From positions 1-30,857 of the forward strand of contig CALSCQ010000410.1 of the NCBI GenBank assembly GCA_943704525.1: 30,857 nt of DNA. Reading direction: 5' to 3'. This document shows, in pieces, positions 538-29,540 of the stretch. Within the stretch, counting starts at the first letter, position 1, and each line of letters starts with the position of its first letter. The stretch is from Pigoraptor vietnamica (taxonomy: Eukaryota; Opisthokonta; Filasterea). A program made the translations under genes and the position numbers. The notes under the pieces are model-generated. The model had not been told where the DNA came from, did no database searches, and saw nothing but the letters and a program-made list of their open reading frames with translations.

Positions 538-3500
538 TCAATCGTCCGCGTTCGCCGCCACAGACTCTCCGCCGTCCACGCCGAGGAGGTCGTCGTCGTC
601 GCTCTTGGCGCCAACCCTGTTCGAGAGCACCTTCGAGTAGTATTCTTGGATGCGAGAGGCGACATCCGACGACACAATCTTGCCGACATTCTGAAAATTG
701 CGGGGAACAAGCACGTGGGCCGAGGTCAGGCAGACGCCCACACGCAGCTATACGCAACCACAGCGACAAGAAATAAGCGCCTAGAATGCACAGAGCCCAC
801 GAACACACGACGAGAAAAGAATAAAAAAGGCGCTTGAAGGGCACTTGATGTATCACGCCTGGTCACGTGCCCAGAACACGCGTGCCATCCCCACCTGCAC
901 CAGCGTCGGCCCGTCGTCGATCCGCAGAATGTGCACGAGCGCGCGCGTCGCGGCAATGTTCACCATCGAATTCTTCTCGCGGGCGCACGTGATCGCCACG
1001 GGCAGAACGGCGCCGCCAAACTTGGTGTAGAACGCGTTCCCGCGCACCCCCTTGGCGATCGACTTGATGGCACGCAGCGCATCGTGTCGCGTGTCTGTCG
1101 ATCCGTCCGCGCCGGCCTGCGCAATGGCGCGCACCATGCCGTCGATGTGCGCGTGCTCGAGAACGCCCTCGTTCAGCATGCCGTACTTGACAAGACGGCC
1201 GCACGCCTGCAGGCCGGAGTGGGCCACAGGGACGCGCTCGTCCGTCGCAAACGTCGCCGCGCGCGCAGCAACGCTCGCCGCGCCTCCGAGCGAGAGGAGC
1301 CTCTGAGGGGACTCCAGCGCGATGGCGGACAGGGCGAGTGCGCGCCCGTGCCTCTCTGGAAGCGTCGCGGGCGGCTCTGAGAGAATGTTCTGCTTGAGCA
1401 AATTGGCGACCTCCGCATCCGGCGCAAACGCAGAGAGCGTGCCGATGGCCGCGCCCGCCGCCTTGCGCACGGCCTCGTTGTTGTCGGCAAGGACGCCGAG
1501 CACGGTCGAGAGCACCGTCGCCCTCGTCGCGTCGCTTGCGTCCTTTCCCGCGCGCGCGAGCACATTCCGCAGCGCAGAGAGCATCGTCTCCTGCACAGCG
1601 CCGGTGCTCGTCCTCGAACCCGAGGCCAGCTCGACGATAAGCGGGTCCACGCGCGCCTGCAACCCAATGAGCAGGCCCAGCGCCGCCGCAGCGCGCGTGC
1701 GAATCTTGTCCGAGTTGTCGCTGAGCGCCTTGATGAACGACGTCTGAAGCTGCGGGACGAAGGCCTTGACCATCGCACCCACGCGCTCGAGCAGCAGCGT
1801 CAGCGTCTCGAGAATGGCAATCTTGACGGCGTCCGTGTACTTGTCGCCGACGACGCGGATCAGCGGGCCGGTGATCTGGATGACGAAGGGCTTGAGGGCG
1901 TCCGGCTTCGTCAGGCGGATGATCTCGCCCAGCGCACGCGCCGCCGCCTCGCGCGTCTCGGCGCTGCCGTTGCCGAGGCCGTGCAGAAGGCCCGGCAGCA
2001 GCGGCGACACGCCCTTGGGAATGTTGAATCCAGGCAGCTCGCTCGAGGGGAGGCCCGACATGACGGCGTCCTCCACGGCGTACGCGACCATCCGGCGGAT
2101 CTGGCTCGTGTGCTGCGACATCTCCTCCTTCGGCACGCGGCGGGAGATCGCGTCAGCCGCCTTCCACGCGGCCTCGACGACGCCGGCGTCCTTGTCGCTA
2201 AAGCGGCGCACCATCGCCTCGAGAATGGACACGACGTTGGCGAGGAGGTCGCCCTTGGTCTCCTCGCAGAAAGCGTGGACGAGCTCGCACGCAGCCTTGC
2301 GCATCCCGGCATCGTCGTCACGCGCGAGGCCAAGCAGCTCGGTGAGCATGAGGCGCATGCCCTGCTCGTTGTCAACCGACAGCACGACCTGGCGCGCCGA
2401 AGCGAGAATCTCGTCGTGCTCCTGGGGCGACTTTGCGCCGCGCATGGCCGACGCGAACGCCGGCACAATCTGGGAGAGGTGCTTGTTGAGGGCGATCCCC
2501 GCGACCGACGTGAGCGCCGAAAGCGCGCGTGCGTTGAACGGCGAGATGGGCGGGCTGATGAGCTTGGGCACGAGGAAGGGGAGGACGACGTTGCTCTTGA
2601 CAGCCATGACCTGGCGGAGGCCGTCGAGCGCAAACGCCGACACGTCCGAGTTGCCGAGAAGAGAGAGAAGCTCGGGGATGATCTCGTCGATCGTCGCGGG
2701 ACCGACCGTGCGGTGAAGGCGGTCGAAGGTGCGCGCCGCCTCCTCGCGCACCTCGGGAAGCGGGTCGCAGAGGGCGCGGCGCACGGCGGGCATGATCTTG
2801 TCCACGTACTGGATAATCTGCGTCGTTGTATGGAACGAAAGTGAGAAAGGAACGCCGTGACTGAAGAGAATGGGCTACACACACAAATAAACAAACGCCT
2901 GAAGCACAACTGCCCAGACAAGCAGAGACAACAAACAGCAACACGCAAACAGCAACACGACCCACCTGCTCCCTGCTCGTCGACTCCATAATCTCGCTGA
3001 AACCGACGCACACACCCTGGCGGCGGTCGCTCTCCTCCGCCTCCAGGCCGCGCTCCAGCATCGGAATAATGTCCGGAAGAACCCGCTCGCCGAGCTTGCG
3101 AACGAGGTCGCCCAGCGTGCGCGCGGCCACTTGCCGGCGGTCGTAGCTCGTGCTTGCGAGCGAGCCGAGGAGAAGTCCCATGAGCGTGACGAGAATCTCG
3201 CGCAGCGTGCGCGCCGTGTTCGTGACGACCGTCTTCCAGACGTGCAGAGACGCCTGGCGCACAATGGGGCTGACGTCCGAGCGTGCCATATACAGCCCCG
3301 CGAGCACGCGGTTGCGGCGCTCCTCGCCAAGAGTCATGAGGATGGCCTGGCGCGCCTCCTCCGTCCCAAAATTGTCGTCCTCGTGGCCGACCGTCGTCTT
3401 CTTGCCGGAGAGACCCGACACCTTGTACAGCAGGTCGCCGAGCAGCTGCACCGAGCTCTGTCGGATGCGCCAGTTCTCGTCAAACAGCCCAATCTCCAGC

Positions 3501-6500
3501 TCGGGGAGCAGGAGCGCGACGGACGTGTCGGCGTAGTGGCTGATAATCATCTGGCCGGCCTTGAGCGCCGCGTCGCGCACGTACTCGGCCTCGTCCGCGA
3601 GACCCTTGAGGATCGACGGGATGATCGGGGGGATGTGCGCGAGGAACGCGTCCCCAAACACGCTCGGCATGTACACAAACAGCATGAGATAGCCCTCGCG
3701 CACGTGCGGGCGACCAATCTTCGTGTTGGCCACAAAGTCCGGCATCATCGCCTCGAGCTTGCCCGTGCCGAGCGCCGAGAGCACCTCGCTCAGTCCCTGC
3801 GCGGCGCCCGCGCGGTCGACGCCGCTGTTCTCCGAACGCAGCGTCTCGAGCAGCCACGGCACGAGGTCACCCATCGAGTCCTCGCCAATGCCGCGGATCA
3901 TCGTGCCGAGGGCCTTGGCGGCGACGGCGCGCACCTCGGGGATGGGGTCGAGGAGCACCTCCTTGAGACCCGGGAGAAGGAAGGGGAGGTAGGGCGCGAG
4001 GTCCTTCTGGTCGGTGAGCGAGCTCATGTTGCCGATGATCTGCGCGGCCATTTTCTTCGTGTCGGTCGAGCGCTCCTTGAGTGCGCGCTGGAGAATCGGC
4101 ATGACGAGGGCGAGGGAGGGGACGTCGATAAAGTGCACAAACGCAGTGTCGATGAGCGCCTGGAGCGCCTTCTGCGTGCGCGCGTTGGGATCGCGCAGCG
4201 CGTCGAGGAGGAGCGCGACGAGCGCCTGGATCTCGGGGTTGCGAATGACGGCGCCAATCTGCTTGAGTGCCTGGTTGCCGGCCTCTTGCACCTGCGCAGG
4301 CACACACGCACACGAAGTTGAACACGACGCGAGAGAGCAAGGGCAACAACGCTGACAACTCGCACACGCACACAGACGCAGGCCCCCACCTTTGCGTGCG
4401 AGTCCGAGAGGACCTCGATGAGCCGCGGCACAATCGTCGGGAGGCATGCCGACAGTTGCTTCGGCGCGCAGTAGGCCATGGCACCGAGCAGTTCGGCGCT
4501 TCCCTGCTTGGTGCGCCACGCCTTGTCGTCGAGCGCGTTCAGCAGCGACGGTAGCACAAGCTTGACGCCGTGGCCGCTGAGCTGGCTCATGATCGCCTTG
4601 GCCGTGTCCTCCGTCGCCGCGCGCACGTCCTTGTTTCCATCGCCAAAGCACACCAGGAGGTGCGGTAGAATGTGAATAATGTACGGCTCGAACAGGCGGC
4701 CGAGCGTCGTGCACAGCGTCTCGAACGCCATCAGCGCGCCCTCGCGGTGCTGCGCAACCTTCTTGTCCTCGATGGCCTCCTGTAGCTTCGCCATAATCTC
4801 AAACTGCTTGAGCGCGAGGATCCCGAGGCCCTTCACGACGCCCGCGAGACCAAACGCGGCGCCGCGGCGGACGCCATACGAATCGCCGTCGAGCAACTTG
4901 AGCGTCAGGGTGCGCACGGTGTCGGCGGCCGAGTCCTTCACCGCGGGCACGAGCGGCGGGAGGCAGCGCGCAACGGCCTCCTGCACCGGCTGCGACGGCG
5001 TGTCGAGCGCCTGCAGCAGCCGCTTGAAGATCGGGGGGACCTTCGAGTCACCCGGTTGGAGGTGGCGCGCCACAGAGCCGATCAGGATGACCACGCTCTC
5101 GCGGATGCGGTCGTGCGTCTGCGTCGGGGGCGCCGGGGAGTCGATGTACCGCTCGAGCACGGGAAGCACGTTCTGCACGCAGCTTGGCCCGTGCGCGTCA
5201 ATGGCAGCCTGCCCGGCCGCGAGCATCTTCGAACGCACGTCTTCGCTCGCGTCGCCAAGCGCGCCGCCGATGAGGAACGTGAAGAGCTGGGAGAGCTCCG
5301 CCGCACGGAGGTGCGGGGCGATCGCGGCGAGAGCGAGGGCAATGCCCACGCGCGCCTGCCAGGGGTCCACCCACACCTTGTGAACGATGTTGCCGACGGC
5401 GTCGCGCTCGGGAGGCGGAACGCGCAGCTTGTCGTCGTAGCGCTGAACGAGGCGCGAGAGCGACGCACCGATGGCCTGGGGGTGGATCTTGAGGGCACCG
5501 GCAAGCGCGAGGCCTGCCGAGACGCGCACAGTCTCCTCGCTCGAGAGCGTCTTGTCGACGAGGATGTCCGTATGGTGCGCACCGAGCTTCAGCCCGTGCT
5601 TCTCCCACACGGCCTTTGCTTGCTCGGCGGTCGGCGCATCGGCGTCGTGGCACGCGAGCCACACGCCGCCGACGACCGTGTCCGAAGACCCGTCGAGCGG
5701 CACGTGGTGCAGCGCATCCACGCACGCAGCACGTACCGCCGTATCAGCGTGGGTGAGACCCGCGATGAGAGGGGCCGCTTCGGTGGGCCCAAGCGACTCG
5801 CTTCCGCTCTGACAGAGGGCGACGAGCGCGGCGTGCGCGGGCTTTTGCAGGCGCGCATTGGCCGGAATGAGGCTCACGAGCGCGGCGATGATCCCCGCAC
5901 GCGGCATGAGGGGCGAACCGCCCAGGTGGCAGTGCGCCGCGACAATCGCGAAGGCCGCCTCGTGGACGGGAAGCATGTCCGAAGCCGAAAGCACGGCGCG
6001 GACGGCGGGGAACACAAATGCGAACGAGCCTGGCGCGAGGGCGTGCGCGTGTCCCTCCTCGGCAAACAGCACCCTCAGCCTGTTGACGACGCGGGCGGCC
6101 ATAACCTTGAGCGGCTCCTCGCACCAGGCGGGGTCCTTCGCAGAAGCCGTGCCAACCATGCGCGCCGTGAGGTGCGCGACGGCGGGCGCGAGGCGACGCA
6201 GGCGGTGCGCGAGCGCCGTTCCCAGCACGGCCAGCGTCTCGGCAGCGCGGCCGCCAACGAGCGGCGACGACAAGAGCGGCACGAGCGAGGCGACGAGTGA
6301 AGGCGAGTGCTCGTCGATGGGCCCGTCGTGCGTGAAGTCGTCGTGGGCGGCGCACTCCTCCGCAGCGACTGCAGCGAGCATCATGGCCCTCCCGACCGTG
6401 CGATCGGCGGCGACGACGCGCTTGCGGGTCGCAGACTCTTTCGCCAGCTGCGCTTCCATCGTCTCCTTCTGTTTCTTCGTCAGCTGCAACTCGGGCTTCT

Positions 6501-9219
6501 TGCCTTGCTTAGCCTCAATCTCGGCGCGCACCTGCGCCTCCCACAGCTCGTCCTCGTACGAGTACACCTTGCTCTCTCGCTTCTTGTTTGCGAGCGCCAC
6601 AGACGGATCCTGCCGCTGGAAGGCGTCCCCGAGCACCGTCGTGTCGAACAGCGTGCCCTCGGGCGTCCGCGCAATGTTGCACTCGTACTCACCGATGCCG
6701 GCGACCAGCGACGGCTCCATCCCGCTGAGCATTCGGGGCACGAGCACACGAAGGGCCGCCTCGGCGTCGATGCGAAGAAGCGTTCGGACGGCGGCGACCG
6801 CAGAGCGGCGGCGATTGCCTTCGTCAGACCCGAGGCCCTCCGCACCAACCACAACATCCACGAGGGCGTCCCCGACAAGCGACGCGGGGTCAACCTTCAG
6901 CTGGGACGCGGCCGTCGTCCACCACGACAGCGACTGCACCTCGACCGCGGGATGGTGCAGCGGCAGCACAAGCGCAAGCGCGACAGACACGCCATACTTG
7001 GCGTCGGCGTTCGCGGGCAGCGTAGCAATAGCAAGGCCACAGCCGCCTGCCGAAGTCGCGAAGCGGCGCCGCACTTGACAAGCGTCGACATCCTTCGCGC
7101 TCTCGTCCTTCTTCTCTGCCGCCTGCTGCGAGAATTGCTCAGCGTGCGCGCGCAAGGCCTCCGCCAGCGCCGCGGCCACATCCACAGACGCCTTCGCCCG
7201 GATGATCTCGACGACAGCGTCCCGTCCCGCCGTGCGGACGGTGTGCGAGTTGTGCGAACCAAGCGCAACAGCAGTCGCAAACCAGAGGGGACGCGTCGCG
7301 GGTCCACCCGTCGTCCCGTCCAAGCGCGCAGACGCATTCCCAAGGAGGCGACCGGCAATGTGCGCCAAGTACACGAGATCTTGCTCCGTCGCAGACGCCT
7401 GCAGCTTCGTCGAGAGCAGCACGCGCGTCTTGGCATCAGCGTCCACGACGGCCGCATAAAACGCCTTCGTCGAAGAGAGCGTGCTGTCCACCTGCGGCTC
7501 CACGCTGGCGAGCTGCAGCAAAATTGAGGCGGCGGCCGCAAGTTCCCCAAAGTGCGCGGGCTGGGCGGGCTGAGTGGCGCGGGCGCGCTCCACGACTCCA
7601 AGAAGAGACGTCACCAAGTCGGCATTCGCGGCAAGCGCGCGCGCCCCATCGCCGGAGCAAGCGATACCGGCGACCGCATCGAGGAATCCGCGGCGTGTGT
7701 ACGGCTTGGCATTTTTAGACAGCGCCTCCTTCAGCACCGGCACGAGCCCCGAGGGCAGCGCGGACAGCTTCCCGCACCACGACGCTGCCGCCGCAGCGAC
7801 GGCCTTGCCAGCACCCTCGTGCGCTTCCCCCTGCGCAAACTGCGCGAGGCCCGAGACGGCGGTTGTCGCTGCACTCGCGAGGGCCGCCGCCGACACCTGC
7901 GCATTGCTGAGGCTGCCGATGGCGCCCGCAACAGCCGCGCGGTGCTCCCACGAGCCAATCTTGCCTTCCGAGCCATTGAGCACGGCCAGATAGTCCTTCA
8001 CCATCTGTTCCGTCACCGATCCGTCGCTGCAGTGACTCGCGACGGCGGCGACGGCCTTGGCGGCGTCCGCGCGCGTCGCCTCGCTGTTCGACTTGAGGTG
8101 CGCCGCGAACATCTTGACGACCTTAGCCGCGACTGGGCTGATGTCGCACGCCACGCGGTCGAGTGCGCTAGCAAAGGCGCCGAGCGCAGTCTCCGGGTTG
8201 CGCAGCATGCCCTTCTCGGCAGCGGGCAGGACAACAGACACAAACGCATCGCGGTCGCAGAGCGCCAAGAGAGGCTCCAGGGACGCAAGGACAGCGACGG
8301 GAACGGCCGCCTTCGCGCAGAGGGCCGCCTTGCCATACACGTCGAGGAGCGGCTTCCGCTGCGCCTCCACAAATGCCTTGCGCCGCGCTTCCTCCTTCTT
8401 GGGAAGGCGGCGCGCGGCCGCGCACACGGCACCGACGAGAGTGAGAGTCGACTCCTTGGGCTCACCCGCGGTGCATGCGCGCACGTATGCATCGAAGACG
8501 TCAGCGGGCGCAGCCGAGAGAAAGCGTGCGAAGCGGTCTACGGCATTGCGGCCGACGCTCTTGCGCTCGGCGGTGAGGGCGGCCGCAAGGAGCGACGACT
8601 GCACTGTCACGAGCGCCGTAAAATGATCCGACGTGTGAATTGCGCGGGCGTTCGCAGCAACAGCGCACGTCCACCGCAACAGCGTCAGACTGCCAACACG
8701 AGTGGCCCTGCAGGCACAATCCAGTCAGACATTCTGAAAATACTGCGCAGAGAGTGTGCGCTTTTGCGCGGAAAACTCACTTGGCAGCCTCCTTCGACAG
8801 CATCGGCACAAACAACTTGAGCGTCTGATCGCCGTGTCGCCGAGCGAGCGTCGCGAGAACGGCCTCCACTGCGACACGCGACGCCCTGTCACCGTAGCGG
8901 TACAGCGTCATGGCCAACAGGGACAGAATTGTCTTCACGGCGCCGTCTGGGAGCTCTGCGGATGTCAAAGGAGTGCACGCCTCAGCGCAAAGTGCGAGGC
9001 AGGAGGAGATTAGATCCCAGATGCACAGGGGAGTCGACACCCACGCTCTCGCTCGGCCAGCACGGGGACGAGGCCCCGCAGAAGCGACCGGCGCGCATTG
9101 GTCGACGACGTGGTCACATCGTTGTGAATGGCACGAACAACCTCGACGAGGCGATCCTGCGCGTCGACGGGAGTGGTCGGAGCCGGCGCGTCGGCATCCT
9201 GCACGGTTTCAGACCCCAT
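538..9219 (-). CDS. GCN1: GCN1, HEAT-repeat activator of the eIF2-alpha kinase GCN2
   Basis: GCN1 binds translating or collided ribosomes and passes the uncharged-tRNA/stall signal to the kinase GCN2 in the general amino-acid control pathway. I place six exons: 9219-9045, 8955-8781, 8707-4390, 4291-2966, 2817-895 and 690-538. They join in frame to 2689 residues, against about 2670 in yeast and human. HEAT repeats run throughout. The charged insert with YSYEDELWEAQ and LTKKQKE (exon 3) precedes the eEF3-like region. The motifs KNPEI-like RNPEIQALV, DPIPEVRAVAAKALG and RTLGDLVRKLGE follow in exons 3-5, matching conserved GCN1 blocks. The last is in the C-terminal part that in yeast contacts the RWD domain of Gcn2. 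All donors are GT and all acceptors AG. The gene is divergent from the RasGAP gene. No truncation is seen; the family call is secure, and the exon 1 and exon 6 boundaries are the least certain. Confidence 0.96.
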
Positions 9220-9496: not shown

Positions 9497-9847
9497 AACT
9501 GCCTTGAAAATAAGTTGACTGGCTAATAGATTTATCTAGTACTGAAATTCGGGCATTGATAACTGCTACGGGCGAAATCTCGGAACAAGTGTTGTGACAG
9601 TTTCGGGTTGAGAATAAACAGGCACACAGTGCACGACGGCATCGTCTCCACGTGCAGTGTTGTCGAAGTTGTCGCTGCCTGTGCGTGGCCCGCGTGTACT
9701 TTGTGTGCATCCCTGTGTGTTTGCGTGCATGGCCTGTGTTTTGGTAATCGAGTGCACACTTATCGATGTGGCGTTGAAACACTTTGTTTTGCCTTGAGCA
9801 TCATGTGAGTCGGATTACGGCAGCCGCGTTCCGAGAAGCTGCCTCTC

Positions 9848-12751
9848 ATGGCTTCCGAGATGGCGTCCGTGTCGGTGCGGTCGCGCAAAGAGACCAGTCT
9901 CCAGCTCCGCATCGGCGAGGGGAAAGGCCTTCCGTTGAAAGAATCGTGAGTGCATCGGTACTTCAATCGTGTCGTTGTGTGTCATGTGATTCACTTCAAC
10001 CGTGTCGTAGTGTGTGTCATGTGGTTCACTTCAATCGTGTCGTTGTGTGTGTTTGTGATATCTTCGCGGGCTATCCTGGCGCTGAACGAAGATGTTTGCG
10101 GGCGTGCAGGACGGGCACGTGCAACCCGTATTGCCTCATCAAGATCGACAAGGAAGAGGTCGCCCGCAGTTCGACGCAATGGACGACGCAGATGCCGCAG
10201 TGGGGCGAGGACTACCACATGAATCTCCCGCACAATTTCGAGGAGGTGATCGTGTACGTTTTGGACGAGGACTTTATCACAATCGACGAGTTCATCGGAA
10301 AGGTCACTATCACGCGCGAGTCGCTCGAGCGAGTGCCCGGGCTGGAGCAGTGGTACCCGCTGTGTCCGGTGGAGGAGGAGGTGAAGGTGCGCGGCGAAGT
10401 GCATCTCGACATCACGCGCGTCGCCTCTGCCGGCGGGAAGGAACGGTTGCGGGTGAACGTAATTGAGGCGAAGGCGCTTCCGAAGAGGGATGGAGGCGCG
10501 GCGCCGGACCCCGTCGTGGTCGTGTCGTTGACGGACGCGGCGGGCTCGACAGTAGACAAGCAGACGGACGTGCGGAAGAAGAATCTGTTCCCGCGATGGG
10601 ACCAGAAGTTCGAGTTTGAGTATGCCGGCGCTGTGGGTGCTGCGGTCGCGGAGGGAGCCGGGGCCGGCGGCGCACAGTCGCAAGTGCCGACGCTCTCCGT
10701 GACGGTGCACGACGGCGCGGGCGGGGACGTCATCGGGACAGTGACGATGCCGGTGACGGACATTGATTTTGGCGCGCGGTCGACGGATCTGTGGTGTGCG
10801 CTGCTGCCGAAGCGGACGGGGACGGACCCGAAGACGAATCTCGGGTCGATACGGCTGAAGATCAAGTTTACGCAGGACATCATCCTCCCGACGCGCTTCT
10901 ACGAGCCCCTCATGCAGATGCTCCTGCAGTCGATCGCGTCCATGGCGACGATCCAGTCGGGCGCGATCGGCCTGCTGGAGGAGGTCATGACGGACCGAGA
11001 AGACGTCGCGCGGAGCCTCGTCAAGATATTCGATGCGCGCGGGAACCTCCCGGCCTACATGGACGCCGTCACTTCGCTGGACATTCGCAACACCGTCGAC
11101 CCGAACACGCTCTTCCGCGGCAACTCGCTCGCGACCAAGTCGTTCGATCAGCTCATGAAGCTGTACGGCCGCGACTACCTCAAGAGCACGCTGCAGCCGA
11201 TCGTCAGCGACGTGTTCGAGTCGAAGCGGTCGTGCGAGATTGACCCTGGCAAGGCCACTAAGGCCGACAACGTCGAGGCGAACGCCGTCGTGCTGCGCGA
11301 GCTCGTGGAGCGCGCGATGGAGGCGATCTTCACGTCGGCGTCCGAGTGCCCGATGGTCATGCGACGCGCGTTCAAGATCTTGCAGCACAGGGTTATGGAG
11401 AAGTTCGGCGGGCAGGAGGCGGCGAGCAAGGACATCAAGTACATTGCCGTGTGCGGGTTCCTCTTTCTCCGCTTCTTCGTGCCGGCGATCCTCGCCCCAA
11501 AGCACCACGGCATGCGCGACCAGCACGCCGACGCGACGACGCTGCGCACGCTGACGCTCATCGGCAAGACGCTGCAGACGCTCGGCAACTTTGGGAAGGA
11601 GGTCGGGAAGAGCAAGGAGGACTACATGAAGCAGTTCCACGCGATGATACAGGACAAGATGCCGCGCCTCAAGTCGTTCATCGACGCCGTCGTGAACGTG
11701 CCCGACGAGGAGCTGAAGAGGAGCGCACCGCAGGCGAACGACGCCGAGGCGGACCTTCCCGCACCGACCGGTGGATTGACCGACGCGAGCGCCATCAAGG
11801 AGGGCGTGCTGCTCAAGCGCAGCAAGGTGTCGTTTGGGCGCAAGTCGTTTGTGCGCCGGCAATTCCGCATGACGCCGCTCGCGCTCGTGTGCATGGACGG
11901 CGGCGAGGTGCGCGCTCGCATACGGAGGGAGGACATTGTCGCCGTCGAGAAGGTGGACGAGTCGGCGTTTGGGCGCAAGTTTGCCATGCAGGCGAGTTGT
12001 GACAGGACGCGTCCGCACATACGTCCACCCATACGCACACACACACACATATGCACGTACACATACGTACTTACACGCGCGCACACACAAACATAAAACG
12101 CACACAACTTTCATTCGAACGTGAAGATTTCAGCTGGCATTGCTGACTGTCTTCCTATGTGCCGTTTAGATCGTGTCGAGCAATCGCCACCACGCCGACA
12201 ACGTCCTCTACGTGTGCGCCGCCGACGCCAACGACCAGCGCGAGTGGATTTCGGCGCTCCGTTGGCTGTGCGGCAGCAACCCGACGATGCGCAGGGCATT
12301 CCACGCGGGAGCGTACGTCAAGTCGCGGTGGACCTGTTGCCGGTCGGCGGAGCGGGGCGCGGAGGGCTGCAACAAGGCCCACCCTTACGCCGTGTCGGCG
12401 CGCTTCCTCGTCGATTCGAACGTGGTGAGCGTGGAGAAGGAGCTGCAGCACATTTTCCGGCAGATACTCCAGGGGAAGGACAAGCTCACGCGGCACTACC
12501 TCGACGACGCGCCCATCGCCCAACCGTCGTCGTCTCTCTGCATCCCCGCGGACGAGAACGGCCAGCCGGGCGGGCAGATCTTTGGTGAGCCACGCACGCG
12601 CACCATTTCGGCGTTGAGCGCAACGGCGCTTGCTGCGCTGGACCCCGAGGTGCAGCGCGCGCGCCGCGTCACGGCACGCGAGCTACTGACCGTCGTTGAC
12701 GACCTGGACGCTGCCATTCGCAACGAGTCGCTGTCCAGTTCGATATGCTGA
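9848..12751 (+). CDS. GAP1-type Ras GTPase-activating protein (C2-C2-RasGAP-PH-Btk)
   Basis: It is predicted to switch off Ras (and perhaps Rap) at membranes. Exons 9848-9945, 10110-11991 and 12170-12751 join to 853 residues, close to human RASA2/RASA3 (about 835-850). Domains in order: C2A about 15-130, C2B about 145-283, RasGAP about 293-563, PH about 593-700, Btk zinc motif 705-727. The arginine finger is Arg369 in NTLFRGNSLATK. The FLR motif reads FLRFFVPAI, like GAP1 proteins (FLRFFAPAI) rather than the usual FLRLINPAI. The Btk motif is His705, Cys716, Cys717, Cys727, with exactly the spacing of BTK itself. C2A reads CNPYC where calcium-binding C2 domains have Asp, so calcium binding there is doubtful. 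The ATG chosen is followed directly by C2A strand sequence. Intron 2 uses a GC donor. The RASA2/3-like architecture is clear; the orthologue is not. Confidence 0.95.
9960..10057 (+). repeat. intronic minisatellite, three copies of a 33-35-bp unit
   Basis: Copies start at 9960, 9993 and 10028, each opening with ACTTCAAYCGTGTCGT followed by a TGTG stretch and, in the first two, CATGTGRTTC. It makes up most of intron 1 (9946-10109) of the RasGAP gene. Confidence 0.85.
11992..12169 (+). other. GC-AG intron in the RasGAP gene
   Basis: The donor reads CAG|GCGAGT and the acceptor GCCGTTTAG. Only this donor keeps phase 0 and joins the two halves of the PH domain (…FAMQ and IVSSNR…). The nearest GT (in GAGTTG) would shift the frame. 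The intron also contains a CA-rich stretch at about 12029-12095. Confidence 0.8.
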
Positions 12752-14420: not shown

Positions 14421-18520
<4,100 letters not shown>

Positions 18521-24986: not shown

Positions 24987-25845
24987 AGGAGAAAGCCTGT
25001 TCGAGAATTGGTGAATCGTTTTCAAGGCACTTACACCGGGCATTGAGCGAATGACAATACGGTCGGCATATATGCAAGGGTCTCGTACAGCGAATGTCTT
25101 CAATGTGCAGCGTCAGCGGGCATGCGCCATATAATGCCCGTTGGCCGGACGGTGGGCGATTCGTGTCTTGTTTTGACTAAAGCGCTTTATCCCCTATAGA
25201 ATTCGCTGTTCTGTCAAACCCGCAACGACGAGACGAATCGCGTAATTGAGGTCCACGCGGCAGAGGAAGTTGTGCGTCACAGCCGCTACAAAACGGGCCA
25301 TGTGTGTCGGGCGACTTGCGTGCGCCAGGTGTGAAAGGCGACGTGGGATGGACAAAGTGTCCTTCGGGAGAAGGCTTCGACAAGCGCGTCAAGATGGCAG
25401 CTTCCTCAATACACACGACATGTCCGCACGTGCGGACTTACCACATGGGTGAGTGAATTCCCCCGAGCTGGTTGTTTCACCACGCGGGTGTGAAAATTAT
25501 ATTCGGTGCTAACAGAAAAATATCATTTTTTGGTACATTTCCCATACCAATAAATGGAGCGTCGTTATAATTATTTGAAACGGCCAATACAAATTTACCC
25601 GCATTTGCGTCAGGCTATTGTGCTTGTGAGAAGGGTAGATTCAAAATTAGCACCAGAGGTGCAAAAATTGCCACATGCCTCCGGGGAAGTCGTGCGTGCG
25701 CGTCCGTCGTGCTTCGTCGAAAGTGAGCGATCTGCAACACAGTGAAGTCACAAAAACATTGCCATCAAACGCGCGCATCCTCTCGATACCGTGTCCATCT
25801 TATCTCGATCACTCTCACTTGCGTACGCCCACGCGGCCGGCCACG
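24987..25845. other. intergenic region and 5' leader of the histidine kinase gene
   Basis: About 860 bases between the SDS stop and the chosen kinase start. A perfect hairpin (CGGGCAT/ATGCCCG, 25117-25140) lies 130 bases after the SDS stop. An AT-rich stretch (about 25495-25670) could be the promoter. The kinase frame is open from an ATG at 25675, so up to 57 more N-terminal residues are possible. No separate gene is seen. Confidence 0.6.
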
Positions 25846-27351
25846 ATGGAGAATTCCACGTCGTCTTGCCCCTTCTTGGCTGCGCGCAATGGCACGGCAT
25901 CCTACAATGGTGTGTCAACGTCGCCCCACGGAAAACGAAGTGATGGTGACGCAACTATCAAGGACACAGGTCGCCCTTCTTCCTCCATGCGGGGATTTGG
26001 GGGGATGACGGCGGCGGCTATGGCCGGCTGTCCGATCGCTCACTCGTACAACTACGATTCAGACGTGCGATCGCCACTACCATACCACGTGTCCCCACGT
26101 CGCCTCACCAACGAATCCAAGGGCGATGCCCCGTTCTCAATGCGGCTCGACGGCGTGGGCATGATTCTCGAGGCGACTGGCGATAGCGCGCCGTTCTTCG
26201 GCTTTCCGACGGAGCTGCTCGCCGGCATGCACATCTCGTTCCTTGTCCCCGCCTTCGAGTGCGAGGGGCAGTCATGGCGTGACGCCGCGCGCGACGGACA
26301 CGTGTGCGTGGAGGCGCGCCGCCGTGACGGCACGCGATCGCACCTCGAGCTGTATGTGACGGAGACGGCGTGCGAGTCGGGTCAGTTCCAGTACGACCTG
26401 GCCGTCCTCGGCGCGAGCGAGCACAAGGCCGTCGAGCGATGCATGCATCTCGAGCGCCAGCGACTCGAGGCCGTGCTGAATCTCGCGCAAGATGCCATCA
26501 TAACGATCGACACGGGCGGGATCGTGCGGAGCTTCAACAGCGCCGCCGAGCGCATTTTCATGTATTCGGCGGACGAGGTGATCGGTCGCAACGTCAAGAT
26601 TCTGATGCCGCCACAGTACGCCGAGCACCACGACGAGTATCTCAGCGCGTACCTCGCGACGGGCCGCAAGCGCGTCATCGGCATCGGGCGCGAGGTGCAG
26701 GGACTGCGGAAGGATGGGACGGTCTTTCCGATGGAGCTGACGCTGAGCGAGATCAAGTCGCAGACGTTCCACCTCTTCACGGGATTCGTGCGGGACCTCA
26801 CGCAGCGCGCGCGGATGGAGAGCGAGATTGCGCTCGAGAGGGAGAAGCTGCAGTCTGTGTTGGACCTCGCCGTCGACGCGATCATCACAATCAACACGGG
26901 CGCGATCATCCAGTCTTTCAACAAGGCGGCCGAGGAGCTGTTCGGCTACTCGGCGCAGGAGACGATAGGGCAGAACGTGAAGATGCTCATGCCGGCCGAG
27001 CACGCGACGCACCACGACGACTACGTGCGCGATTACCTGACGACCGGGATGAAGAAGATCATCGGGATCGGCCGCGAGGTGCGCGGAATGCGGCGGGACG
27101 GGAGCACTTTTCCGATGGAGCTTTCCGTGTCTGAAGTGCGGACGGGCACGTACCACCTCTTCACGGGGATCATCCGCGACATCACGGCGAAGAAGGAGCG
27201 CGACGAGGAGATGCGTAGGCTCGCGCGGATGGAGGTCGAGATCGCGGAGAGGGCGGCGCGCTCGCGGAACCTCTTCTTTGCGAACGTGTCGCACGAGATC
27301 AAGACTCCCGTGAGTGTCTCAATCTCCCCCTCTCCGTGCGCGCGTGTGTGT

Positions 27352-27390
<39 letters not shown>

Positions 27391-29540
27391 CATGTGTGTG
27401 TGTGTGCGTGTACTATTGAGTACGCGGATTTTGTATGCTGCTCGTTCACACTTCCTCTCGTGGCTTCGCTTCACGCAGCTTAACGGCATTGTCGGTATCA
27501 TTCAGATGGTGGGTTCTCACTTGCACTGTAACCCGCTGGTTCGTTGTGGCGTTTCATCCCTCCCCCCCCCCCCCCCCCCCCTTTTCTTCTCCTTCTCTTT
27601 CCTCCAACACACACGCACATGCCACCCCTTTTTCCTTCCATCCTAACCGTCTCGCTTCCTCCCTTCAGCTTGAGGCCCATGCTCCCGCCACCGCCGACGG
27701 CTGCCTCAGCGGCCTCATCACCGCGATGAAGGGGTGCGGCGACAACCTCCTCCGGATCGTCGAGGACGTGCTCGACTTCTCCAAGATTGGCGCGGAACAC
27801 ATGCGCGTGGGCTTGGAGGAGTTTGACCTTGTCGGCGTCGTCGAATCGGTCGTTGCGCTGCACTCGGAGCAGGCGTTTGGCAAGGGCCTTGAGCTCTACT
27901 TTTACGCCGACCCACCTTCGCTCCCGCCGATGGCCGTGGGAGACCCTGCGCGCGTGCGCCAGGTGCGTTGCGATGCTACAAACACACCAGCCACATACAC
28001 ACACACACACGGCACGCACGCACACACACACGCGCGCGCATACACACACGCACACACATACACACACACACACACACTCACACACACACTCACACACACA
28101 CACACTCACACACACACTCACACACACACACACACACACACGCACGCACACACACACACACACATTCGTTCAATTAGCCTGTCCTCTAATTTCCATCCCG
28201 TGTGCTTGCAGGTCCTTTCCAACCTGCTCACCAACGCCATCAAGTTTACGGTGCAAGGCCACGTGTCCGTCCGCATCTCCCCAATCGCCGGCGATCCGAG
28301 CGCACCACCGCCGGTGAAGCGCGCGGTGACAAAGAGCCTCAGCACGACGAGCACGGGAAGTCTCTCGCCGCAAACATTGGACGCGTCCGCGAATCCCCCG
28401 GAGGAAGAGCCGCCACGGTGCAGGGAGGCGCCATCGCCCTCTCCCCTCGAGCGATTGCTCATCGAAGTGCACGACACGGGCATCGGCATATCGCCTGAGG
28501 ACGTCGCGCGCGTCTTTGCGCCCTTCGAGCAGGCCGACGGGTCCCTCACGAAGAGCTACCATGGCACGGGATTGGGACTCGCCATCTGCGACAGCCTAGT
28601 CACGCTCCTCGGCGGTGAGCTAGGCGTGCGCACCGAGCAAGGGTCGGGATCGACCTTCTGGTTCACGCTCCCTGGCGCCCCGAACCCCTCGCTGAAGCGG
28701 GACGGTCCCCCGGTGTCGCCGTCGGCGATTGCGCGCGAGACACTGGCGGTGACGCCGAGCGGTGCGTGCGCGGTCTTCGCCGAGCGCAAGCCCGTGGGTG
28801 TTATCGGTGGTCCGTCGTTCTTCGCGGCCGTTGCAACATGCCTGCACCCACTTGGCGGTACGCCGACGCCTGTCAGTCTACCGTGGAACCCCGCGAGTGT
28901 GCCCAACACGTTGCCACTCGTCGTGGATCTCGATTCTATATCCACGGAATTGCGGGACTCGCTCATGGACAGGGACGCCGTCGTTCTCTTCTCGTCCAAG
29001 GTGGCCTCGCGACCGGACCGCAAGATCGTGCGCAAGCCCGTGACGCGCGACAAGCTGCGCGCGTGCGTCGTCGACCATTCCGACCGTTCGCACTCGTCGC
29101 GCACGGGCACCGGTGCTCACGACGAGGCGCCGGCGTCGACGCGCACGGTGCTCGTCGCAGAGGACAACCGCATCAACATGATGGTCGTCGCGGACTTTCT
29201 CAAGAGCGGCGGCTACACGGCGCTGCGGGCGTCCAACGGTGTGGAGGTCTGCGACGTGTACGCGGCCGCGCCGGAGGGCTCGATCTCGGTCGTGCTGATG
29301 GATCTGCAGATGCCCGTGCGAAACGGGCTTGACGCGGCGCGAGAGATACGGAAGATTGAGGCGCAGCGTGGGTGGCGAAGCGTCCCGATTGTGGCGCTGA
29401 CGGCGAGCACGCTCCCCGATGTCATGCAGGACTGTCTGCAGGCGGGGATGGACAACTTTGTCGCAAAGCCGATCAAGAGGGATGCGCTGCTGCGGGTGCT
29501 TGAGAGGACGCTCGGCGGCGAGGACGGCGGGGACACGTGA
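25846..29540 (+). CDS. hybrid histidine kinase with two FixL-like haem-PAS domains
   Basis: Predicted soluble sensor kinase starting a phosphorelay. Exons 25846-27309, 27479-27508, 27669-27962 and 28212-29540 join to 1038 residues. I chose ATG 25846 for its strong context (GCCACGATGG); ATG 25675 in the same frame would add 57 residues of no recognisable domain. Order: N-terminus with two Cys-Pro motifs (Cys8 in CPFLA; Cys62 in CPIAH); degenerate PAS1 about 98-200; PAS2 about 202-328; PAS3 about 331-455; HisKA with phospho-acceptor His483 (SHEIKTPLNG); HATPase about 597-755 with N-box Asn604, DTGIGI and GTGLGLAI, plus a Ser/Pro-rich insert; a degenerate receiver about 790-885; and an intact receiver about 908-1038 with Asp960 (LMDLQMP) and KP. 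PAS2 has His262 and Arg282, PAS3 His390 and Arg410. These align with haem ligand His200 and distal Arg220 of Bradyrhizobium FixL, with identical 20-residue spacing. No membrane span is seen. Confidence 0.94.
27336..27410 (+). repeat. GT-rich tract in histidine kinase intron 1
   Basis: (GT)n with CG and TATG interruptions lies in the middle of intron 1 (27310-27478). In the pre-mRNA it is a (UG)n stretch, complementary to the (CA)n of intron 3. Confidence 0.9.
27562..27581 (+). repeat. poly-C tract (20 C) in histidine kinase intron 2
   Basis: An uninterrupted run of 20 C followed by TTTTCTTCTCC lies in intron 2 (27509-27668). It is part of a 110-base pyrimidine-rich stretch leading to a CTAAC branch-point-like sequence and the CCCTTCAG acceptor. 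Confidence 0.9.
27992..28164 (+). repeat. CA-rich tract in histidine kinase intron 3
   Basis: About 170 bases of (CA)n with regular CT interruptions (CACACACACACT units) and GCG steps fill most of intron 3 (27963-28211). Confidence 0.95.

Follow-up and report, generated by a model that had tools for sequence, protein, structure and literature searches.

A hybrid histidine kinase with two tandem FixL-type PAS domains in Pigoraptor vietnamica, a candidate haem-based gas sensor

Direct haem-based oxygen sensors that signal through a phosphorelay have been described chiefly in bacteria. Does a gene of the unicellular eukaryote Pigoraptor vietnamica encode one? We present here the analysis of a hybrid histidine kinase gene at 25846..29540 (+) of contig CALSCQ010000410.1, which was analyzed as one stretch of 30,857 nucleotides (the window), together with profile searches of the genome around it (32.5 Mb, 1395 contigs). 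We put at roughly 70% the probability that the kinase works in the cytosol as a haem-based gas sensor, with oxygen as the most likely ligand. The computed evidence for this reading consists of the sequence, the fold, the placement of the ligand residues, and a full set of phosphorelay motifs.

PAS2 and PAS3 of the kinase both have a predicted FixL fold, a proximal histidine in the F helix, and a distal arginine in the G strand, the features of a FixL-type haem-PAS. In the sequence alignment, FixL His200 corresponds to His262 (PAS2) and His390 (PAS3), and FixL Arg220, the distal residue that contacts O2, corresponds to Arg282 and Arg410, respectively. The His-Arg spacing is 20 in both domains, the same as in both FixL crystal sequences. 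At FixL positions 215, 218, 222, 234, 236, 238, and 249, PAS2/PAS3 contain V/I, I/I, V/V, M/M, L/L, L/V, and F/F; the pocket positions compared are identical to FixL or conservatively changed. The tandem PAS matches SmFixL 1d06 with an E value of 1.7e-32 and BjFixL chains with 1.8e-32 to 4e-29, and identity to solved single FixL haem domains is 45-54%. A preliminary description of this DNA had claimed the residue correspondences, the spacing, and the hydrophobic character of positions 215, 218, 236, and 238, all of which are borne out.

An AlphaFold model of the tandem PAS was built from a 21-row alignment (predicted local distance difference test [pLDDT], 87.7; predicted template modeling score [pTM], 0.57). 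Its fit to single FixL haem domains is 1.1 Å over 116 residues for PAS2 and 1.0-1.6 Å for PAS3, free of register shift. The offset to BjFixL numbering is 132 for PAS2 and 4 for PAS3, which places His200 at model residues 68 (His262) and 196 (His390). Structure prediction had been proposed as a check, and it puts both histidines in pocket register, not away from the pocket.

The same residues recur among relatives of the kinase, taken as the best 120 of 7094 matches by likeness to the two-PAS query. Both the His and Arg columns are covered by 364 of the 396 PAS domains listed in these relatives; 332 have both residues, 12 have His only, 7 have Arg only, and 13 have neither. At least two His-bearing FixL-type PAS domains are present in 119 of the 120. 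The Arg206 column contains Asn in 224 of the 344 His-bearing domains. A search with the kinase region turned up no orthologue of this region from a eukaryote among the 120 of 5950 matches listed, which include no EukProt entries and are prokaryotic where named.

Several points weigh against the sensor reading. The conservation of His and Arg is partly built in by the similarity-based selection of relatives. The predicted model contains no haem, and the arrangement of PAS2 and PAS3 is unsure (pTM, 0.57) because the fit to the tandem FixL structures 8js5 and 8js6 is looser, at 3.8-3.9 Å over ~245 residues. The NCBIfam FixL model matches the unspliced open frame at 25846-27483, which covers exon 1 and reads on through the intron, with an E value of 1.3e-83; the profile search suggested earlier thus upholds the FixL subfamily, yet the 281 bits obtained miss the 850-bit cut-off of the FixL equivalog (NF041777). 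On the proximal side, FixL Arg206 has given way to Ala268 (PAS2) and Asp396 (PAS3), and switching could differ. This objection is weakened by 2cmn, a structure titled for the proximal arginine in the switch, which has Ala at the Arg206 position and which presumably holds haem, and by the Asn at this position in most His-bearing domains of the relatives. FixL His214 is likewise replaced, by Arg276 and Lys404. Finally, instead of O2, the protein might respond through its haem to NO, CO, the redox state, or the supply of haem. FixL haem domains have also been crystallized with NO, CO, and cyanide (1dp8, 1lsv, and 1lt0), and the N-terminal SSCPFLA fits HRM_r, a Cys-Pro consensus for haem regulatory motifs, which would suit a haem-supply role; the distal Arg, the O2 contact of FixL, is however present in both domains, and we consider such a ligand unlikely.

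The spliced protein (1038 amino acids) contains, in order, a weak PAS1, the two FixL-type PAS domains, HisKA, HATPase, a linker, and a complete receiver. The features of the gene are as follows.

25846-27309, 27479-27508, 27669-27962, and 28212-29540, + strand: exons (open frame after exon joining)
25846..26127, + strand: N-terminal ~94 residues, predicted disordered (pLDDT <50 for residues 1-94)
25867-25869 and 26029-26031, + strand: N-terminal CP motifs, Cys8 in SSCPFLA and Cys62 in GCPIAH (sequence)
26140..26460, + strand: PAS1, degenerate, without the F-alpha histidine (weak BLAST match to FixL-type PAS of relatives; PAS-like model)
26461..26805, + strand: PAS2, FixL-type, His262 at 26629-26631 and Arg282 at 26689-26691 (Pfam, alignment, model)
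26845..27189, + strand: PAS3, FixL-type, His390 at 27013-27015 and Arg410 at 27073-27075 (Pfam, alignment, model)
27190..27309, + strand: helix from PAS3 to HisKA, with phospho-acceptor His483 at 27292-27294 in SHEIKTP (model helix)
27265..27794, + strand: HisKA (dimerization and histidine phosphotransfer [DHp] domain), residues 474-540, split by introns 27310-27478 and 27509-27668 (Pfam, 4.7e-15)
28212..28673, + strand: HATPase_c region, NLLTNAIKF at 28221, DTGIGI at 28473, and GTGLGL at 28563 (Pfam, 5.8e-27)
28674..29147, + strand: linker (sequence reading)
29148..29501, + strand: receiver, VAEDN at 29154, Asp960 in LMDLQMP at 29295, ALTAS at 29394, and VAKPI at 29460 (Pfam Response_reg, 3.1e-20)

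A Pfam scan of the spliced protein found PAS in two stretches, HisKA at 474-540, HATPase_c, and the receiver at 909-1026, all over their cut-offs. The phosphorelay residues are complete (His483, N and G boxes, receiver acidic residues, Asp960, Thr, and Lys), and the H, N, and G boxes with a receiver bearing a phospho-acceptor Asp define a hybrid histidine kinase; the kinase core and receiver are intact, as had been claimed. The HATPase_c region contains a Pro/Ser-rich insert. PAS1 (residues ~99-205) had no Pfam match and a PDB sequence match of only E 0.15; its predicted structure in an exon 1 model is a PAS-like fold with only a short helix at the place expected for His. The linker (VVDLD ... 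RKPVTRDKL) had no Pfam match and is possibly a degenerate receiver.

For the working of the sensor, we infer haem in both sites, O2 as the ligand, the direction of control, and the partners. PAS2 and PAS3 would each hold haem b via His262 or His390, and Arg282 or Arg410, with a hydrophobic roof, would select and stabilize bound O2. Ligand binding would shift strands G and H, a change that would travel via the PAS-linking helices to the DHp helix with His483 and there raise or lower kinase activity. Phosphate would pass from His483 to receiver Asp960, then to an HPt protein and a separate response regulator. Genome-wide matches number 19 HisKA (excluding the intron-split HisKA of this kinase), 1 HPt, and 40 receivers (including the receiver of this gene), a set that would be enough for a multistep phosphorelay. 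Haem is probably made by the host; in the same genome, a ferrochelatase match lies over its cut-off and ALAS-like matches lie under theirs, exon by exon.

Both sites need not be at work. Only one PAS, more likely PAS3, might bind haem functionally, with PAS2 as a weak haem site or a dimerization or tuning module. PAS3 adjoins HisKA and runs straight into its helix (an unbroken helix, 447-486, joins PAS3 to DHp in the exon 1 model; 16 alignment rows, pLDDT 73.5), and the tandem-PAS FixL 8js5 has haem in one of its two PAS domains. PAS2 nevertheless retains both ligand residues, His and Arg, along with the hydrophobic pocket character, and it superposes on FixL haem domains as well as PAS3 does. 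Dual PAS-haem sensing is also attributed to Vibrio Aer2 by the title of a paper cited in PMC8694187. A single working haem is improbable by our estimate.

Two further FixL-type loci, which the preliminary description did not include, nor did it include the Arg206 and His214 replacements, were found in the genome. The first, C345:20929-22439 (L020 4430-5940, -), codes for a kinase-free protein of 440 residues in which all three PAS domains are FixL-type and carry both the His and the Arg; the gene has one GC-AG intron, and its stop lies shortly past the third PAS. The protein shares 66% identity over 336 residues with P0054, a EukProt protein of Opistho-2, which we take to be Pigoraptor. The end of P0054 falls near the corresponding C345 exon end, and the sequence probably ends at an exon end. 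Against P0099, a protein of Nk52 (presumably Chromosphaera), and P0094, identity is 43-44% over 384 columns, nearly to all C termini; P0094 is treated as holozoan solely through its 58% identity to P0099. The PAS part of the kinase itself shares 60% identity with P0054 and 43% with P0099. The second locus, on C1234, contains two FixL-type PAS domains, each split and each with His and Arg (L131 ~3480-4640, +), and, ~1.2 kb downstream in the same orientation, segments of a Ser/Thr protein kinase (L131 6097-7352, +; Pkinase, 6e-9 and 1.8e-24) with MARK and AMPK kinases as nearest PDB matches among the 60 of 1255 matches listed. The PAS pair and kinase are likely one gene, which from its sequence may perhaps be a haem-binding PAS kinase. 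No convincing PAS with His and Arg was found in C733, C556, C1198, C1125, C686, C464, C241, C62, or C292; six further Pfam PAS matches, on C1344, C209, C1093, C322, C249, and C1203, lay outside this survey. On C292 (L029:3332-6391 +, and L038), two long frames, probably similar to TmcB-type membrane proteins of eukaryotes, have a PAS with the FixL-type His and with Thr for the distal Arg.

These loci bear on whether the PAS pair binds haem at all. According to a PAS survey, haem binding within the FixL/DosP cluster is determined primarily by this His, which is present in 60% of the cluster and absent from ~40%; PAS-A of human PASK, in a neighboring cluster, also lacks it (PMC10468136). A haem-free pair, with another ligand or serving in dimerization only, would resemble that PAS-A, and the last PAS of P0099 is likewise without the His. 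His and Arg are present, by contrast, in both kinase PAS domains, all three of C345, and the two of C1234, and P0054 has His in three FixL-type PAS domains and Arg in two of them, the third being too short to cover that column. Loss of haem from the pair is thus very improbable in our judgment.

The kinase, C345, and P0054 also have an N-terminal CPF in common (Cys8 in SSCPFLA, Cys31 in GGCPFLA, and Cys3 in MSCPFFS, respectively), within low-complexity sequence that is otherwise unlike among the three. The motif was picked out post hoc. In a background sample of 131,527 residues (reading frames in all six phases of the window and of 12 loci of the same genome), CPF[LF][AS] occurs twice, once in the kinase gene and once in the C345 gene, and a CP-hydrophobic motif in the first 60 residues is found in P0054 only among the 120 relatives listed. 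As given in PMC3904948, HRM_r is a seven-residue pattern around Cys-Pro, and HRM_t is N/K/R-Cys-Pro-(K or hydrophobic)-L/M. Cys8 of the kinase fits HRM_r, while Cys62, C345, and P0054 do not; HRM_t has no match in the kinase, C345, or P0054. The HRM_r fit alone is weak evidence because the pattern occurs 6 times in the sample. The frames of a probable ALAS gene on C933 contain CPIM and CPVF, which by eye fit neither pattern. CP motifs are mostly located in loops, according to PMC10377097.

Is the gene that of the eukaryote? Exon joining at GT-AG sites gives a single spliced open frame of four exons, from the ATG at 25846 to a TGA with its last base at 29540, with introns of 169, 160, and 249 nt; an in-frame ATG at 25675, open to 25846, is a possible alternative start. 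The gene is nuclear and, as had been proposed, eukaryotic, because the contig also contains GCN1 segments, a C2-C2-RasGAP gene, and a GIT-like ArfGAP gene. The named relatives of the kinase, among those listed, are mostly bacterial, which would fit bacterial contamination or a recent bacterial insertion into the assembly; the three introns, the eukaryotic neighbors, and an intron-bearing paralogue (C345) on a separate contig leave this a negligible probability. Long (GT)n/(CA)n runs lie in the introns at 27350-27400 and 27990-28165, and a C run lies near 27562, with comparable runs in L020 (C345) and L131 (C1234). Elsewhere on the contig, the segments of GCN1 (a stalled-ribosome sensor), with HEAT repeats, occupy 853-8679 (-), the long open frame of the C2-C2-RasGAP protein occupies 9784-12096 (+), and the GIT-like ArfGAP, with ankyrin and SHD repeats, which hints at a holozoan genome, occupies 17315-18520 (-); a weak GIT1_C match at 14659-15732 (-) is under its cut-off. 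The Opistho-2 and Nk52 relatives are the other basis for calling the genome holozoan. The mitochondrial COX1 of the same genome, on C295 (L019), reads TGA as Trp; apart from one match of 99%, its named matches among the 120 listed are at 66-74% (Triparma laevis, 74%; Fonticula alba, 68%; Pyropia pulchra, 66%), so COX1 gives no placement.

The origin of the tandem domains was approached with domain trees, all built on 115 columns. FastTree on 354 domains placed the kinase PAS, P0054, C345 PAS1, and the first haem-PAS of P0099/P0094 in a weak cluster (0.737) and C345 PAS2/PAS3 in a separate one (0.859). A quick tree of 91 rows, with one random His- and Arg-bearing domain from each of 70 of the 71 usable bacterial loci (80 fetched), contained a 17-row cluster (97) of 9 of the 11 holozoan rows, the metagenome proteins P0114/P0116, and P0046, with 0 of the 70 bacterial rows. 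In a careful tree with one long row removed, the cluster has 18 rows including one bacterial row, probably L075 (95/86), and the second haem-PAS of P0099/P0094 lies outside it. Two of the three trees bring nine of the 11 holozoan domains together with P0114, P0116, and P0046 and leave almost every bacterial row outside. Grouping 19 or 11 rows together was not rejected (p-AU, 0.637 and 0.566), which is no proof of a clade. The trees would permit a single ancient acquisition with later duplication of domains and genes.

It is a doubtful but wider idea that animal kin have an old tandem FixL-type family with hybrid-kinase, kinase-free (C345 with its Opistho-2 and Nk52 relatives), and Ser/Thr (C1234) forms, in which kinase-free members would be partners or buffers of the kinases, labile haem would gate or load the sensor through the CPF of the disordered N terminus, and oxygen and haem supply would be read out jointly. 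If true, this multi-output family would give animal kin a way of sensing oxygen that does not depend on HIF, and C1234 might be related to animal PAS kinase and bind haem. For the kinase itself, an intact sensor in a eukaryote probably close to animals, with C345 and C1234 in the same genome, would mean that animal relatives could sense oxygen through haem as well as through 2-oxoglutarate dioxygenases, and a two-haem kinase would be a tractable case for how paired gas sites shape dose response.

The preliminary description knew of no described eukaryotic protein of this build. We found no eukaryotic hybrid kinase with tandem haem-PAS domains described among titles and abstract openings, a search that most subscription papers lay outside, and the text of a review of eukaryotic histidine kinases never mentions FixL or oxygen (PMC6944256). 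P0054 and P0099 have FixL-type PAS domains in common with the kinase and differ in having no kinase in the available sequences. Chlamydomonas FXL1/FXL5, FixL homologues reported by Murthy et al. in 2012, are said to bind haem and O2; they are alike as eukaryotic FixL-type PAS proteins and differ in being from a green alga. The broader claim of novelty needs care because of these homologues, the presence of PASK in the FixL cluster, and P0114/P0116. The PAS domains of PASK from Capsaspora, Thecamonas, and Acanthamoeba fall in that cluster in the survey cited above (PMC10468136). Their output differs, being a Ser/Thr kinase, and the C1234 locus is similar in build. P0114/P0116 have three FixL-type PAS domains, HisKA, and HATPase, with 32-35% identity to the kinase over 669-727 columns and the same tree cluster as the kinase PAS, and differ in the lack of a CP-hydrophobic motif and of a Pfam receiver.

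Bacterial FixL (Bradyrhizobium and Sinorhizobium) is alike in its PAS with proximal His and distal Arg and in its histidine kinase output, whereas the kinase described here has two haem-type PAS domains, an extra degenerate PAS, a fused receiver, introns, and a replaced Arg206. Hybrid FixL (hFixL) of rhizobia, a FixL variant that carries a fused receiver, is bacterial, unlike the host here. It signals through FxkR at 1% O2 (PMC7888657). Bradyrhizobium P0052 has several FixL-type PAS domains with HATPase and a receiver and differs in being bacterial, as are the multi-FixL-PAS kinases among the relatives listed, where named. Bacterial FixL, hybrid FixL, and tandem FixL-type PAS kinases are elements already known; what is probably new, going by the titles and abstract openings searched, is a hybrid kinase with two PAS domains of the haem type in a probable holozoan that also has a kinase-free paralogue with three.
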